A stretch of DNA of 64,000 nucleotides from Tidjanibacter massiliensis. Its GTDB lineage: Bacteria > Bacteroidota > Bacteroidia > Bacteroidales > Rikenellaceae. The notes under the pieces were generated by a model, which was not told the DNA's origin, ran no database searches, and saw only the letters and a program-made list of their open reading frames with translations. Made by a program: the position numbers and the translations under genes. Location of the stretch: NCBI RefSeq assembly GCF_900104605.1, contig NZ_LT629960.1, positions 1,922,001-1,986,000 of the forward strand. Reading direction: 5' to 3'. Shown piece by piece: positions 46,085-54,622 of this stretch; positions within the stretch are counted from its first letter, which is position 1; every line of letters starts with the position of its first letter.

Positions 46085-46732
46085 TTATTTGGAATAGTTG
46101 TGCCGCTGGGGGCCCTTGTTGTTCTTGCCGTTCTTCTTGTTGGCGTAGAGCGGTTTCTTGCTGCGTACCGGCGCCTGCTTGTATTCGCTTTTTATCAGAC
46201 TCAGGGCATCCTCGTCCACGCTGATGCGGTAATCCGACATCCGCTTTATCTCCTTGATGATGGCCTCGTTGTTGGGGTGCTCCTGATTGTATTCGTAACT
46301 TTTGGTGCGCATGTAGCGGGCAATGTCGCCCAACACCTCCTGTACGGCCTCCTGGTCCCGTACCCCTTCGAGCGAACGGATGACCTTCTTGACATATTTG
46401 CCGTAATGTTTCAGCCCCACCTTTTCGTCGGGATAGTCCATGCGGCGCGGTACGGGTGTCAGCGTCATCGAGGTGGGAATGGGATAGGGAGAATCCACGT
46501 CGAGCTTGAAATCGGACATGATGAACATGTGGTCCCAGAGTTTGTGGGTGAACTCCGGGGTGTCCCGCAGGAGGGGGTTGAGGTTACCCATCACGTTTAT
46601 CACCACCCGTGCCTTGCGGTTGCGTTCATCGCGGTCTTCGATGGCCATCAGGTTGTCCACCATCTGGTGTATGTGCCGGCCGTACTCCGGCAGCTGCAGG
46701 TTTTTCCTGTAGATGTTATAGTTTTTTTCCAT
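46085..46732 (-). CDS. DUF4290 family protein
   Basis: 215 residues from ATG 46732 (MEKNYNIYRKNLQLPEYGRH). A conserved Bacteroidota-specific cytosolic protein with the opening LPEYGRHIHQMVDNLMAIED followed by VINVMGNLNPLLRDTPEFTH. The basic tail (SKKPLYANKKNGKNNKGPQ) may bind nucleic acid. Function is unknown; the family is widely conserved in the phylum, often near cell-wall or division genes, but nothing here tells its job. Confidence 0.85.
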   Translation of the reverse strand: MEKNYNIYRKNLQLPEYGRHIHQMVDNLMAIEDRDERNRKARVVINVMGNLNPLLRDTPEFTHKLWDHMFIMSDFKLDVDSPYPIPTSMTLTPVPRRMDYPDEKVGLKHYGKYVKKVIRSLEGVRDQEAVQEVLGDIARYMRTKSYEYNQEHPNNEAIIKEIKRMSDYRISVDEDALSLIKSEYKQAPVRSKKPLYANKKNGKNNKGPQRHNYSK

Positions 46733-46882
46733 AAAATGAATCATTAGTCGCTGCCGCAAGACGGCAACCGCCTGTTCACGATAATGACCGGCTCCGTTCC
46801 TCGGTAGGACATCCGTCCGGTAAAATATGTGAAATCAGGAGGTCAAAATGCTGATAGGTAGGAGAAAAATAACAGCATGTCT

Positions 46883-46913
46883 TTTGACAAGAAAAACTAA
46901 TTACTTAACTTTG
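46883..46913 (+). promoter_or_regulatory. Canonical promoter of the sigma-54 activator gene
   Basis: -33 TTTG (46883-46886), 19-bp spacer, -7 TAACTTTG (46906-46913). Start near 46920; leader of about 56 nt. Confidence 0.7.
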
Positions 46914-46975
46914 TACAAAGTTAATGCGATTTTTTGGGGAAATCAAATTTTGCTGTAACATTTTAACCTCCGACT

Positions 46976-48148
46976 ATGGCCAATATACTGGTAATAGATC
47001 CTTCGCGCAGCATGCGCAATACTCTGAAAGAGCGTTTGGAGTATGAGGGCCATGCGGTGGAAGTCGCCGAAGACACGATTTCCGGCATGACCGTCTATGC
47101 GAACCGGCATTTCGACCTGTTGCTGTGCGGACAGCCCGATTCCCCGCTGAGAACCTCCACGCCGTGGATAAGGCTGTCGCATGACAGCAGCCCGGAAAGC
47201 GCCGTTCTGGCTATGCAGCAGGGTGCTGTCGATTTCGTCACGAAACCCATCAACATGAACCGGCTGCTGGATGCCGTGCGCAAGGGGCTGGCCAAGACGC
47301 CTGCCGCCGTGGCGGATGCGGCGGACGAGGCCGAATCCGTCCCGGAAGAGGTTGTCCCGGTACGCCGTGTGCGTGCCGCGCGGTCGCATGTCGGCAGGAT
47401 AGTGGGCGAATCGGTTCCGGTCAAGCGTCTGAACACGTTGATTGACAAGGTCGCCCCGACCGATGCACGGGTACTTATCATGGGAGCCAACGGGACGGGC
47501 AAGGAGCTCGTGGCGCGTTGGCTGCACGAGAAGAGCCGCCGGCGCGACGGACCGTTCGTCGAAGTAAACTGCGCCGCCATTCCTTCCGAACTTATCGAAA
47601 GCGAACTGTTCGGTCATGAGAAAGGGGCCTTCACCTCCGCCGTCAAGCAGCGCAAGGGCAAATTCGAGCAGGCCCACAACGGAACGTTGTTCCTCGACGA
47701 GATAGGCGATATGTCCCTGCCGGCGCAGGCGAAGGTGCTGCGCGTGTTGCAGGAGCGCAAGATAACGCGCGTCGGCAGCGACCGCGACATCGACGTGAAT
47801 GTGCGTGTTCTGGCCGCGACCAATAAGGACATTCCCCGCGAAATATCCCGCGGCGAGTTCCGCGAAGACCTTTTCCACCGGTTGAGCGTCATCATCATCC
47901 GTGTGCCGACGCTGGCCGAGCGCATAGACGATATTCCCATCTTGGTGGACCATTTCCTGGAGACGATATGCGGCGAATACAACGTGCCTGTCAAGAAGAT
48001 AGAGGCGGAAGCGCTGGCCGAACTGCAGAAATTGCCCTGGACAGGGAACATCAGGGAGCTCCGCAACGTGGTGGAGCGCCTCGTTATCCTGTGCGAGAAT
48101 ACGATAACGGTCGATGACGTGAAGATGTACGCCAACGGACTGCAATAG
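46976..48148 (+). CDS. Sigma-54-dependent activator with degenerate receiver, no HTH
   Basis: 390 residues from ATG 46976. The receiver-like N-terminus (MANILVIDPSRSMRNTLKER) keeps one acidic residue (D8) and K90 (DFVTKPIN), but the phosphorylation Asp is replaced (LLLCGQPD, Gly at 52), and the following region is shortened. The AAA+ domain is complete: Walker A GANGTGKE, the loop GAFTSA (usually GAFTGA), and Walker B LFLDEIGD. There is no C-terminal Fis-type helix-turn-helix; the chain ends soon after VVERLVILCENTITVDDV. It may act from solution or through partners. Own promoter and terminator; no kinase gene next to it. Confidence 0.88.
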   Translation: MANILVIDPSRSMRNTLKERLEYEGHAVEVAEDTISGMTVYANRHFDLLLCGQPDSPLRTSTPWIRLSHDSSPESAVLAMQQGAVDFVTKPINMNRLLDAVRKGLAKTPAAVADAADEAESVPEEVVPVRRVRAARSHVGRIVGESVPVKRLNTLIDKVAPTDARVLIMGANGTGKELVARWLHEKSRRRDGPFVEVNCAAIPSELIESELFGHEKGAFTSAVKQRKGKFEQAHNGTLFLDEIGDMSLPAQAKVLRVLQERKITRVGSDRDIDVNVRVLAATNKDIPREISRGEFREDLFHRLSVIIIRVPTLAERIDDIPILVDHFLETICGEYNVPVKKIEAEALAELQKLPWTGNIRELRNVVERLVILCENTITVDDVKMYANGLQ

Positions 48149-48184
48149 CTCCGCAGATTGCTTGTTGCAAAGAGAAATGACAGT

Positions 48185-48344: not shown

Positions 48345-48401
48345 CACCAACATTAATTATCCTAAAACCGGACTATGCAACCATAGCCTTTTCGTCATTG
48401 C

Positions 48402-51188
<2,787 letters not shown>

Positions 51189-51271
51189 GACACAAAAGTT
51201 TAAAATTTATAAATTTTAAAAAAGAAAATGTGGCCTTGTCAGCGGTTGGCTCAATTATCCCCGTGTGTTTT

Positions 51272-51297
51272 CCGTTACTTTATAGGTAACGGCACAT
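51272..51297 (+). repeat. Inverted repeat IR-L of the invertible segment
   Basis: 26 bp starting CCGTTACTTTATAGGTAACG, the exact reverse complement of 52530-52555. It carries an internal dyad CCGTTAC/GTAACGG with a 7-bp centre (TTTATAG), the shape of a tyrosine-recombinase core site. Confidence 0.9.
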
Positions 51298-51370
51298 GTC
51301 CCTGTATCCTCACCGGAGGCCGTTTCGGATATGGGGTCGTGGTACGGTTGCATACGGACAGAGACAGCCT

Positions 51371-51396
51371 GTCCGGGGAAACGCATCTCCCCGGAC
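51371..51396. terminator. Hairpin between recombinase stop and IR-L
   Basis: Perfect 9-bp stem GTCCGGGGA/TCCCCGGAC (51371-51379 and 51388-51396) with an 8-nt loop. No U-tract. It might stop recombinase transcripts from running into the lipoprotein gene. Confidence 0.35.
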
Positions 51397-51485
51397 CGAC
51401 CGTCGCAGTTGAGAAAAGTCGCGGATTTGTTCGTATCCGGTTTCCGGCAGCCGGGGGAAGCGGCTCCGGCAACCGGGCCGAACGT

Positions 51486-52427
51486 TTATCGGCCGGAGTT
51501 TTTCCGGGCCTGTTTTTTTACATAGGATATCACTTCCCGGTTGGCTTCGTCAATCCGGTCGTCCCGGAACGGTTTGAGGTAGGTCTCGGTGACCGCTATG
51601 GAGGAGTGTCCCATCGCCTCGGAGATGATGCCGGGATGTATTTCGCAGTAGTAGGCCATGGTAGCCCATGTATGCCGTATCGTGTAGGTGCTGATGGGTG
51701 TCGAGCCGCCGAACCGTTCCCCGAGCGCGGCGAGCTGCCGGTTGAAACTCCGCAGCGCACGCTGGTATTCACGGTAAGCCTCCTCGCTCCCTTCCGGACT
51801 GGTGAGGAACGGCAGCAGATAAGGCGATTCCTCCCTTTTATCCGACAGGGTGTCGATGAGCTTCAGGGCCTCCGGTGTCAGTATTACGGTGAGTCGTCTG
51901 CCCGTCTTGCGTCGCCTGTACCTTAATATATTGCCTTGGATGTCGCTTTTGCGCAGGTAGGCGAGGTCTACGAACGGGATGCCGCGCAGGATGAACATCA
52001 ACTGGAGAATGGCCAGCGTGCGCTCCATTCCTGCGGAGAGTTCCTCGCCCTTGCCGTTCATCAGCCCTCCCATGTCGGAGGCTTCCAGCGACTTTTTCCG
52101 CTCGGAGGAGACCCCCGTTTGTACGTGCCGGAAGAGCCGTGGGACATAGCTGGCGTAGCCTTCGTCCACGGCCCGGTTGTAGGTGGCCCGCAGCACTTTC
52201 ATGTAGGTGGAGACGGTGTTCCAACTGCATTTGCGTTTGCGGAGGTATATCTCGAAATCCTTCAGGAGCGCCGGGGTGAATTTCTTGAACGGGATGTCCC
52301 GGCAGCAGGAGAACAGGGCGAACGAATTGTACGCGCTTTGGTAGACGTGGGCCGTACCCCATTGTCCGTTCTCTTTAAGCTCCTGTATGATAGATGATAG
52401 CGTTTGCAATAACGATTTCTGTTCCAT
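51486..52427 (-). CDS. Tyrosine recombinase (DNA invertase) inside invertible segment
   Basis: 313 residues from ATG 52427; an ATG at 52466 adds 13 unremarkable residues. SAM-like N-terminal domain (IPFKKFTPALLKDFEIYLRK) and a catalytic domain with R148 (LRGIPFVDLAYL), K174 (RRRKTGR), R251 in TYTIRHTWAT, H274 (GHSS) and nucleophile Y283 (VTETYLKPF). The first position of the HxxR motif is Tyr, which is common in Bacteroidota invertases as I know them. It presumably recombines the flanking 26-bp repeats and so inverts the segment carrying it. Its reading direction flips with the segment; in the sequenced state it reads left toward the lipoprotein gene. Confidence 0.9.
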   Translation of the reverse strand: MEQKSLLQTLSSIIQELKENGQWGTAHVYQSAYNSFALFSCCRDIPFKKFTPALLKDFEIYLRKRKCSWNTVSTYMKVLRATYNRAVDEGYASYVPRLFRHVQTGVSSERKKSLEASDMGGLMNGKGEELSAGMERTLAILQLMFILRGIPFVDLAYLRKSDIQGNILRYRRRKTGRRLTVILTPEALKLIDTLSDKREESPYLLPFLTSPEGSEEAYREYQRALRSFNRQLAALGERFGGSTPISTYTIRHTWATMAYYCEIHPGIISEAMGHSSIAVTETYLKPFRDDRIDEANREVISYVKKQARKNSGR

Positions 52428-52489
52428 AGTACCGCATTTGTTTTGAATACATTGATTTATCGCCACATAATAAAAAAAACAACTATTAT

Positions 52490-52520
52490 TTTGCGCGGTT
52501 GCAAAAAACAGCTATATTTG
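52490..52520 (+). promoter_or_regulatory. Canonical promoter inside the invertible segment
   Basis: -33 TTTG (52490-52493), 19-bp spacer, -7 TATATTTG (52513-52520). Start near 52527, just inside the right repeat. It is aimed outward (right) as sequenced. Confidence 0.75.
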
Positions 52521-52529
52521 CGTTGTGTT

Positions 52530-52555
52530 ATGTGCCGTTACCTATAAAGTAACGG
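52530..52555 (-). repeat. Inverted repeat IR-R of the invertible segment
   Basis: Exact 26-bp reverse complement of 51272-51297. On the outer side it continues as a longer dyad (see 52530-52560). Confidence 0.9.
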
Positions 52556-52560: not shown

Positions 52561-52774
52561 GCCGTTTTCGGGCGTTCCGGATGCGTTTTGGAGGCCTGAA
52601 TGTGTCATATATCGGAGTGGTTGATGGTATATGCAGTACGGAAGATGTTCCGTACGGTGTCTTTCCGTATCTCTTTGCCGTCCGGTATCCGCTCCGGAAC
52701 GGATGGACCGGATGCCGTATCGCCCAAATTCGGGTATTTTTGTGCATCGTTTAATCAAGTTTAAAAAAAATTAC

Positions 52775-52782
52775 TATTTTTG
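52775..52782 (+). promoter_or_regulatory. -7 element of the PorV/PorQ-like gene
   Basis: TATTTTTG, an exact TAnnTTTG match, start near 52789, leader about 58 nt. The flanking sequence is AT-rich with a weak TTTA at 52750-52753. The region 52561-52774 holds no other gene or signal. Confidence 0.5.
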
Positions 52783-52846
52783 TCTATTGTGACTTATGCG
52801 ATATGTCATCAACTAAAGTAAATTATAATAATCTAAATCTCTGACT

Positions 52847-53848
52847 ATGAGTAAAAAAATCTTGCTCGGAGCAATTTGTACGGTACTTTTTTGCGGTACT
52901 TCTGCAACTGTGTTCGCTCAGGACAATGCTCCCTCGGGCGCTGCGTCTTCACTGCTTAACAGCGCCGACCCCCGCGCCGCCGGTATGGGTATGGCAACTA
53001 CCGCAGTGAACGACAATCCTTTCGGAATATTCGGCAATGCCGCATCCAACCTCCTCAGCGAAAAACGGATGGGCTTCGGCTATTCCTACAACCCCGTGAT
53101 GCCCGATTACAATAAGGGCGTTGCTACCCATGCGGTAGGCGGTTATTTCAACCTCGACGAAAACAACGGTTTCTCCCTCGGCTTCCGTTATTTCAACGGT
53201 CCCAAGAGCATTATCGCAGGTGACGATGCCGTTGCGGGCGATTCTTTCCGTCCCAACGATATGGCTGTCAGCATCGGTTATACGCGCAGGATTGTGGATA
53301 ACTTCACCATGTCGCTGACTGCTAGGTATATCCGTTCGGATTATACGAAGTTCGGCAGCGACTATTACAAGGCCGGCAATGCGTTTACCTTCGACCTGGG
53401 ATTTTACTATGAAAATACCATCGAATCTTTCTACGGTTCGACCTGGGCGGTGGGCCTCAACGTCAGCAACGTAGGTACCAAACTCGATATCTCGGTGCCT
53501 TCCAATCCGATAGCGATGCCTGCCTACGCTAAGCTGGGCGGTTCTATCGACATGCCTTTCTCCGAAAACCACAAGCTGCTCGCAGCTCTCGACCTCGGCT
53601 ATACCTTCATGCCTTCGACCGATGCGTCGTTTACCGCCGGTCTGGGTCTGGAGTACAACTTCCTGAAACACGGTTTCCTCCGTGCCGGTTATCACTACGG
53701 TGACGAGAAATCCATCGGCGGCAGCTACGCTACCGTGGGGCTCGGTGCGGCAGTAGGTCCGGTGAGGGTCGATGCTTCATACTGGATTGCAGGTAAGGAG
53801 AGCCCGGTGAAGAATACCTGGGCAGTGGGCCTCAGCCTCTTCTTCTAA
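52847..53848 (+). CDS. PorV/PorQ-family outer-membrane beta-barrel protein
   Basis: 333 residues from ATG 52847. Signal peptide (ILLGAICTVLFCGTSATVFA), then the PorV/PorQ-type opening SLLNSADPRAAGMGMATTAV and NPFGIFGNAASNLLSEKRMG. A FadL-like 14-strand barrel follows (GFGYSYNPVMPDYNKGVATH, then amphipathic strands to the C-terminal Phe of WAVGLSLFF). Proteins of this family help type IX secretion or surface display in some Bacteroidota, but no other T9SS genes are here, so it may be a general porin-like protein. It has a terminator at 53885-53913. Confidence 0.82.
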   Translation: MSKKILLGAICTVLFCGTSATVFAQDNAPSGAASSLLNSADPRAAGMGMATTAVNDNPFGIFGNAASNLLSEKRMGFGYSYNPVMPDYNKGVATHAVGGYFNLDENNGFSLGFRYFNGPKSIIAGDDAVAGDSFRPNDMAVSIGYTRRIVDNFTMSLTARYIRSDYTKFGSDYYKAGNAFTFDLGFYYENTIESFYGSTWAVGLNVSNVGTKLDISVPSNPIAMPAYAKLGGSIDMPFSENHKLLAALDLGYTFMPSTDASFTAGLGLEYNFLKHGFLRAGYHYGDEKSIGGSYATVGLGAAVGPVRVDASYWIAGKESPVKNTWAVGLSLFF

Positions 53849-53884
53849 TCGGACATAGCGGCCGCTTCGGCGGTGACGAACAGG

Positions 53885-53913
53885 CGGGTACCCGGTGAGG
53901 GTGCCCGTTTTTT
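53885..53913 (+). terminator. Rho-independent terminator of the PorV-like gene
   Basis: 9-bp stem CGGGTACCC/GGGTGCCCG with one G-U pair (53885-53893 and 53899-53907), then six T. The following 270 bp (53914-54187) hold no gene. Confidence 0.85.
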
Positions 53914-54187
53914 GTCGTCGTCCCGAACCGACGGAAGCGGAACGGGTTTCGGAGCCGTATCGGTTTCTGTTTCCGACCTTTTGTGTTTGCGCCTTGGTTT
54001 TGCCTTTCCGAAAGGGGCTTTGTGCTGTCTTCGCTCGTCTCATTCCGGTCGGAGGTGCGGCTTGTGTCCGCACGGGCAGAGAGAGGGGAAGGCGGCCGGA
54101 AGAAAAGGACAGAGGTGGAAAGGGGGGCTTCTGCAGTCGTCTCGGCTGCGCAGGAGGATGGATGGAACTGGAACGCTTCTGCTGCGA

Positions 54188-54228: not shown

Positions 54229-54310
54229 GCGGATATGGCGTAATTGGTAGCCGCGCCAGACTTAGGATCTGGTGCCGAAAGGCGTGGGGGTTCGAGTCCC
54301 TTTATCCGCA
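54229..54310 (+). tRNA. tRNA-Leu (TAG)
   Basis: 82 nt including the discriminator. Acceptor GCGGATA/TATCCGC, anticodon arm CCAGA-CTTAGGA-TCTGG with anticodon TAG, a long variable arm (class II, TGCCGAAAGGCGT) and T-arm GGGGGTTCGAGTCCCTT. CCA is not encoded. Confidence 0.97.
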
Positions 54311-54435
54311 CAAGTCGGTTATGGCAGCGGAAGATAAATCGCAAATCGTTGCGTTGTTATCGGTATCGGATGCGACCGGTTGGGCTGGAAGATTTTTTCG
54401 CACCGGTTTTCGATGTCTCGTCCGGGTGGGGTTAG

Positions 54436-54495
54436 ACTTAAAGAGGCCGTACCGTTCTGAACAGATATGTTCAGAACGGTACGGCCTCTTTAAGT
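54436..54495. terminator. Perfect 28-bp stem hairpin
   Basis: Arms 54436-54463 and 54468-54495 are exact reverse complements with a GATA loop. It is the longest perfect hairpin in the window, between tRNA-Leu and the convergent YugP-like gene. It is AT-rich at the base and GC-rich inside, and can terminate in both directions. Confidence 0.6.
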
Positions 54496-54578: not shown

Positions 54579-54622
54579 AAACAGATGCAGGGAGACGGAT
54601 TTCCGTCTCCCTGCATCTGTTT
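54579..54622. terminator. Perfect 21-bp stem hairpin
   Basis: Arms 54579-54599 and 54602-54622, 2-nt loop, starting with AAACAGATGCAG. It lies 17 bp past the YugP-like stop on the minus strand, ending in T-rich sequence on that strand, so a terminator is likely. Confidence 0.65.

Follow-up and report, generated by a model that had tools for sequence, protein, structure and literature searches.

A probable self-contained invertible promoter switch beside a collagen-like surface lipoprotein gene in Tidjanibacter massiliensis

Background

Switches that depend on the Tsr tyrosine recombinases of Bacteroides fragilis were reportedly described by Weinacht and colleagues in 2004. In Bacteroidaceae, the recombinase gene is usually located upstream of the invertible promoter (PMC13114119), and a position of the recombinase within the invertible segment is occasional, with Hin as the example (PMC5903667). 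In Bacteroides thetaiotaomicron, the repeat consensus CCGTTACCTABVRAGTAAC is present at the BT1927 S-layer operon and at seven other loci (PMC12118408). BT1927 is a phase-variable S-layer lipoprotein that protects against phage and complement (PMC12548429).

We analysed a 64-kb stretch of the Tidjanibacter massiliensis genome (hereafter the window, to which all positions refer), in which an earlier note had proposed an invertible promoter switch. As judged from the sequence and its comparison with relatives, the segment 51272-52555 is very probably a self-contained invertible promoter that serves ON/OFF switching of a large collagen-like surface lipoprotein. With BT1927-type switches it has in common the repeat consensus, the invertible promoter, a large surface lipoprotein as target and a nearby site-specific integrase (PMC12548429, PMC12118408). 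In the BT1927 type, however, the integrase is reported near the locus, whereas the window has its recombinase within the inverting segment; BT1927 shares its operon with other genes, an OmpA-family gene for example, whereas the gene next to the window lipoprotein gene at its 3' end is convergent; and, unlike BT1927-type repeats, the repeat pair of the window is unique in its genome. The Tsr switches of B. fragilis are alike in the broad tyrosine recombinase family, the inverted promoters and the surface-molecule targets (PMC4747536), and B. fragilis carries relatives of the window recombinase (loci L089, L115 and L112), but the Tsr recombinase is located outside its invertible element, which measures about 300 bp, on the upstream side. 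With the Hin switch of Salmonella the locus shares an inverting segment that holds the recombinase gene together with an outward promoter (PMC5903667); Hin belongs to the serine recombinases and has a Fis-bound enhancer (PMC3798978) as well as different sites, whereas the window encodes a tyrosine recombinase. GTTAC-N7-GTAAC repeats, a linked intact recombinase, an outward promoter and an adjoining surface-molecule gene, as in Tsr/S-layer-type switches, are all present, and the one departure is from the position of the recombinase outside and upstream, which is usual for that type but not defining. The window locus is a Tsr/S-layer-type switch with a Hin-like anatomy: it has its recombinase within the segment, and the enzyme is not a serine recombinase, so that it resembles Hin in layout and is not a member of that class.

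Results

Inverted repeats and outward promoter

The segment is bounded by two 26-nt inverted repeats, the predicted recombination sites, at 51272-51297 (minus strand, core GTTAC-N7-GTAAC at 51274-51290) and 52530-52555 (plus strand, core at 52537-52553), which are 100% complementary with 1232 nt between them; the earlier note had placed this perfect pair exactly to the base. Short-loop hairpins set aside, it is the only perfect pair of at least 22 nt in the window, the chance expectation for such a pair being about 5e-7 per window. A search of the 2.39-Mb genome for GTTAC-N7-GTAACGG without mismatch returned just these two sites, and genome-wide matches to the core with one mismatch stayed at the level of a reversed control. 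A chance origin of the repeats is ruled out by the perfect 26-nt match at such a distance and by this genome-wide uniqueness, and cross-talk with other genomic sites was likewise rejected, there being no other copy of the repeat and no close recombinase paralogue. The repeat fits the consensus of the B. thetaiotaomicron S-layer switches exactly (PMC12118408), and its core presumably consists of two recombinase-binding arms that flank a 7-bp spacer.

Elsewhere in the window, an inverted repeat with perfect 28-nt arms and a 4-nt loop is located at 54436-54495, about 125 bp past a tRNA-Leu gene (54229-54311). It is found nowhere else in the genome at up to 3 mismatches; it may serve as a terminator or mark an element close to the tRNA gene. 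A second perfect hairpin, with 21-nt arms and a 2-nt loop, lies close to it at 54579-54622.

The outward promoter, TTTG-N19-TATATTTG (52490-52520, plus strand), sits 9 bp inside the right repeat and points away from the lipoprotein gene, with TTTG at 52490-52493, a 19-bp spacer and TATATTTG at 52513-52520, at the positions and with the outward direction given in the earlier note. Equivalent motifs were present in all 20 cassettes with an internal recombinase, in the form of an outward TTG-N17..22-TAnnTTTG located 7-16 bp inside the repeat 5' of the recombinase, compared to 0.45 of 20 expected from shuffled sequences of the same composition; locus L052, of Candidatus Tidjanibacter gallistercoris, has a second promoter copy further inside the cassette. 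Inversion would bring the final base of the -7 box to 51307, and with a start assumed about 7 nt further on the leader would measure about 112 nt, so that our recalculation returned the same distance between inverted promoter and lipoprotein gene as originally proposed.

The lipoprotein gene itself starts 84 bp outside the left repeat, and no TAnnTTTG is found in the 83 nt from its ATG to that repeat, both of which hold as first noted. TAnnTTTG is absent from the leaders (the gaps between repeat and gene) of 24 of 24 targets; this lack is weak evidence, since just 2.8 occurrences would be expected by chance in 24 leaders, and it does not exclude another promoter type in the lipoprotein leader.

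The recombinase and the spacer behind it

Between the repeats, where the earlier note had recognised it, lies a tyrosine recombinase gene (51486-52427, minus strand, 313 aa) with the Pfam domains Phage_int_SAM_5 and Phage_integrase, the probable invertase of its own segment. Its best start is the ATG at 52427, with the stop at 51486; translation from an alternative GTG at 52466 would yield a protein of 326 aa. The catalytic residues R148, K174, R251, H274 and Y283 are intact and invariant across 21 relatives. The gene is single in the genome, in which the next match reaches 27% identity (E 1e-4). Between the window and L052, codon positions 1, 2 and 3 of the recombinase differ by 14%, 11% and 43%, and since the differences concentrate at third positions, the gene is under purifying selection. 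In the window, no recognisable promoter (no TAnnTTTG) was found for the recombinase gene itself, which would fit a weak expression of the enzyme. The 188-nt spacer between the recombinase stop and the left repeat (51298-51485, minus strand) has an RNA folding z-score of -3.15, and a search between the recombinase and the lipoprotein gene gave no convincing intrinsic terminator in it; as a strongly structured RNA, this spacer may hold back transcription that would otherwise run on into the lipoprotein gene when the switch is OFF.

The lipoprotein target

The predicted target, OFF as assembled, is a collagen-like DUF4988 surface lipoprotein of 928 aa (48402-51188, minus strand), assigned by Pfam (Collagen 3.6e-9, DUF4988 1.7e-7), a lipobox and a Gly-X-Y stretch. 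Its 3' neighbour is a convergent gene for a sigma-54-type regulator (46976-48148), and the lipoprotein lacks close copies in the rest of the genome. A structural model built from eight sequences has a mean pLDDT of 62, in which residues from about 480 to 928 are mostly confident and form successive beta-sandwich domains and the N-terminal half is poorly predicted. The best fold matches were cadherins along with the S-layer proteins SbsB and Sap, at TM-scores of 0.09-0.16 by query length, and a profile of the lipoprotein found no match among solved structures. No function was drawn from the fold search, the matches being generic tandem beta-sandwiches with low TM-scores; from the model, a surface protein of a stalk-like or S-layer-like type is plausible. 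The similarity to a switch-linked lipoprotein of B. faecis (36%) covers the first 150 residues only and is partly of low complexity. Compared with L052, the PorV-family protein encoded on the other flank is 91% identical, the recombinase 77% and the lipoprotein 72%, and the lower identity of the lipoprotein than of the PorV-family protein indicates that change is faster in the switched protein than in the neighbouring one.

Both orientations among relatives

In L052 the cassette has the same two neighbours, the lipoprotein gene at 81 bp and the PorV-family gene at 293 bp, and its recombinase and promoter are reversed, such that the promoter is aimed at the lipoprotein gene. By BLASTN, window positions 46503-48162, 48352-51297 and 52729-53915 align to the plus strand of L052 and positions 51489-52555 to its minus strand, with the repeats as breakpoints. 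A second inverted pair, L055 (ON) and L073 (OFF), with other neighbours, follows the same pattern. The flipped form in relatives, a test named beforehand in the earlier note, is thus found in collinear loci in both orientations and in two separate pairs, and the linkage expected in relatives is found as well, repeats, outward promoter and recombinase occurring together in 20 loci, 19 of them beside a lipoprotein of the same class. These comparisons support the original interpretation of the segment as a putative invertible switch. Among the assembled single-target cassettes about 15 are OFF and 2 are ON, an excess as expected for a switch that is seldom ON; BT1927 is ON in about 1 in 1,000 cells in culture (PMC12548429).

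Two further observations were made at cassettes of this type. In L055 (3509-6634) and L073 (280-3405), which come from two relatives of Tidjanibacter, 3.1 kb beside the cassette is 99.5% identical and the rest of the locus 79-89%, which suggests a recent transfer of this neighbouring DNA. At a shared pepD-like locus in Bacteroides closely related to B. cellulosilyticus (L161, L162, L163 and L164), the cassette is conserved, with recombinases that are 96-100% identical, and the target lipoprotein comes in two distinct versions, as if target genes had been swapped beside a fixed switch.

Distribution and phylogeny of the cassette

Relatives of the recombinase were taken from named genomes at 70 loci. 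The layout of the window, with the recombinase inside the repeats and segments of about 1.1-1.5 kb, is shared by 19 of these, and in 33 further relatives the recombinase is located outside, beside an element of about 300 bp that mostly has the same core; many of these 33 loci control the same lipoprotein class. Of the 20 cassettes, 19 have a large lipoprotein gene whose start lies 60-208 nt beyond the repeat; all 19 targets have the signature C-x-x-Y-D at the lipidation site, and the exception, L092, has a different gene at the target position. In L167 and L114 the recombinase is found beside a lipoprotein gene without an intact repeat pair.

In a maximum-likelihood tree of the recombinases, from which four long-branch rows were dropped and in which 19 inside rows were kept, all 19 fall into one clade of 27 rows (bootstrap 100, SH-aLRT 99), with members from Rikenellaceae, Bacteroidaceae, Muribaculaceae and Odoribacteraceae. 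The tree requires two changes of architecture, or one when L067 and L069 are left out; these Muribaculaceae-type loci (L067 5001-6436, L069 649-2105) are placed within the inside clade and have the recombinase outside, beside an element of about 300 bp. Since outside-type rows are basal, one move inward and one later return form the simplest reading, and the recombinase-inside layout was apparently gained once and lost once.

Cassettes with two targets

At L060 (Odoribacter), L064 (B. muris) and L071 (Mediterranea), the genes just outside the two repeats encode different lipoproteins, with starts 60-208 nt from the repeats and pointing apart. The paired lipoproteins have a common N-terminal sequence and then diverge, with an overall identity of 41% in L064 and patches of similarity only in L060 and L071, and the 5' ends of the genes are near-identical inverted copies of 75-428 bp. 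Because targets are present on both flanks, one of the two genes faces the promoter in either orientation of the cassette, and at least three relatives are therefore likely, from their gene arrangement, to carry a two-way lipoprotein toggle. These three loci resemble the S-layer locus sap of Campylobacter fetus, in which one promoter is flipped between divergent surface-protein genes with common 5' ends; sap recombines between long homologous gene ends and is not known to carry a recombinase in its segment.

In B. oleiciplenus (L054 1696-9442, the same genome as L166), two identical 964-aa lipoprotein genes lie in 3.2-kb inverted copies around the cassette, and a second recombinase of the family is located about 6 kb from it (L114). 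The identical pair may be a recent duplication or an effect of assembly, and L054 was left out of the evidence for the toggle as a possible assembly artefact.

Discussion

Proposed mechanism

In the mechanism that we propose, the internal recombinase would bind the GTTAC/GTAAC arms of both repeats, and strand exchange in the 7-bp spacer would invert the whole segment, the recombinase gene included. With the cassette as assembled, the promoter would fire away from the lipoprotein gene, which would be OFF; once inverted, it would drive this gene from about 112 nt upstream, the ON state. The messenger would then start at the repeat or shortly ahead of it, and the arms of this repeat are able to pair. 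As no own promoter is recognisable, the lipoprotein would be expressed only when the cassette promoter points to it. The DNA upstream of the recombinase would be left unchanged by inversion, so that the enzyme need not be shut off, and in the OFF state its transcription would head toward the lipoprotein gene. In relatives with a second lipoprotein gene on the other flank, the switch would become a toggle. We infer that the recombinase flips the segment that contains it, that inversions are common in a single strain and that transcription depends on the orientation.

Alternative explanations

The promoter at present aims in sense at a PorV/PorQ-family gene (52847-53848, plus strand, NCBIfam PorV_fam 8e-66) that starts 292 bp outside the right repeat, and genuine two-lipoprotein cassettes are known in L060, L064 and L071, so that a toggle could be imagined here too, in which the promoter drives the lipoprotein gene one way and the PorV-family gene the other. 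This gene, however, has a probable -7 box of its own, TATTTTTG (52775-52782, plus strand), outside the cassette in a block that is identical in L052, while the DNA from the repeat to this promoter-like block is not conserved between the window and L052; moreover, in the Bacteroides relatives the gene on that flank is convergent and would be read antisense. Because of its own conserved promoter-like block we judge the PorV-family gene an unlikely target, and the sequence indicates that it is probably not a second one.

That the cassette was once invertible and is now locked, or inverts so rarely that its orientation amounts to a fixed species difference, would agree with the two orientations being seen between species (window and L052, L055 and L073) and with the occurrence of locked forms such as L167 and L114, where recombinase and lipoprotein remain and the repeat pair is not intact. 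We nevertheless hold it to be quite improbable: the repeats of the window are perfect and its recombinase is intact, with the catalytic residues kept and under purifying selection, all of which a dead switch would lose. A real switch that is flipped in trans by another recombinase has precedents in a capsule promoter of P. vulgatus, which inverts though the adjacent recombinase is defective (PMC13114119), and in Tsr19 of B. fragilis, which works at a local and a distant site (PMC4747536), but becomes very improbable in a genome without another repeat copy or a close recombinase paralogue. Least credible is a small mobile element of the tyrosine-recombinase transposon kind, with the repeats as its ends and no regulatory role. 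A recombinase flanked by inverted repeats, in a clade that extends across four families, would suit such an element; the cassette, however, is single-copy in the genome, 19 of 20 cassettes lie 60-208 nt from one class of lipoprotein gene with an outward promoter at a fixed place, and collinear loci differ by inversion and not by presence or absence. A viral origin was also considered and rejected, a scan of viral contigs having given a single weak relative.

What is new and what it means

The self-contained invertible switch that we favour had appeared undescribed in the earlier note. This does not stand for the type of repeat, the family of the recombinase or the use of surface lipoproteins as targets, all of which are known from Bacteroides switches (PMC12118408, PMC12548429, PMC4747536), and it stands for the internal recombinase and the two-target form: a recombinase inside the DNA that it flips looks new within this recombinase family, as does the form with two targets. 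In the open literature searched, we found no description of an autonomous cassette of single origin with two-target derivatives. On balance, we lean toward an evolutionary course in which one recombinase lineage moved once into the DNA that it inverts, the resulting autonomous cassette being present in at least four families, lost in some Muribaculaceae and made two-sided in some genomes, where it would act as an always-on toggle.

With segments of 1.1-1.5 kb in place of about 300 bp, such cassettes may be under-counted by surveys that are tuned to short invertible promoters. Switches of this kind determine which surface proteins are displayed by a gut commensal, and the combination of promoter and enzyme in one cassette makes for a compact, self-sufficient unit. 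In its two-target form the switch would always be on, and the question becomes which lipoprotein is expressed, which is testable in single cells.
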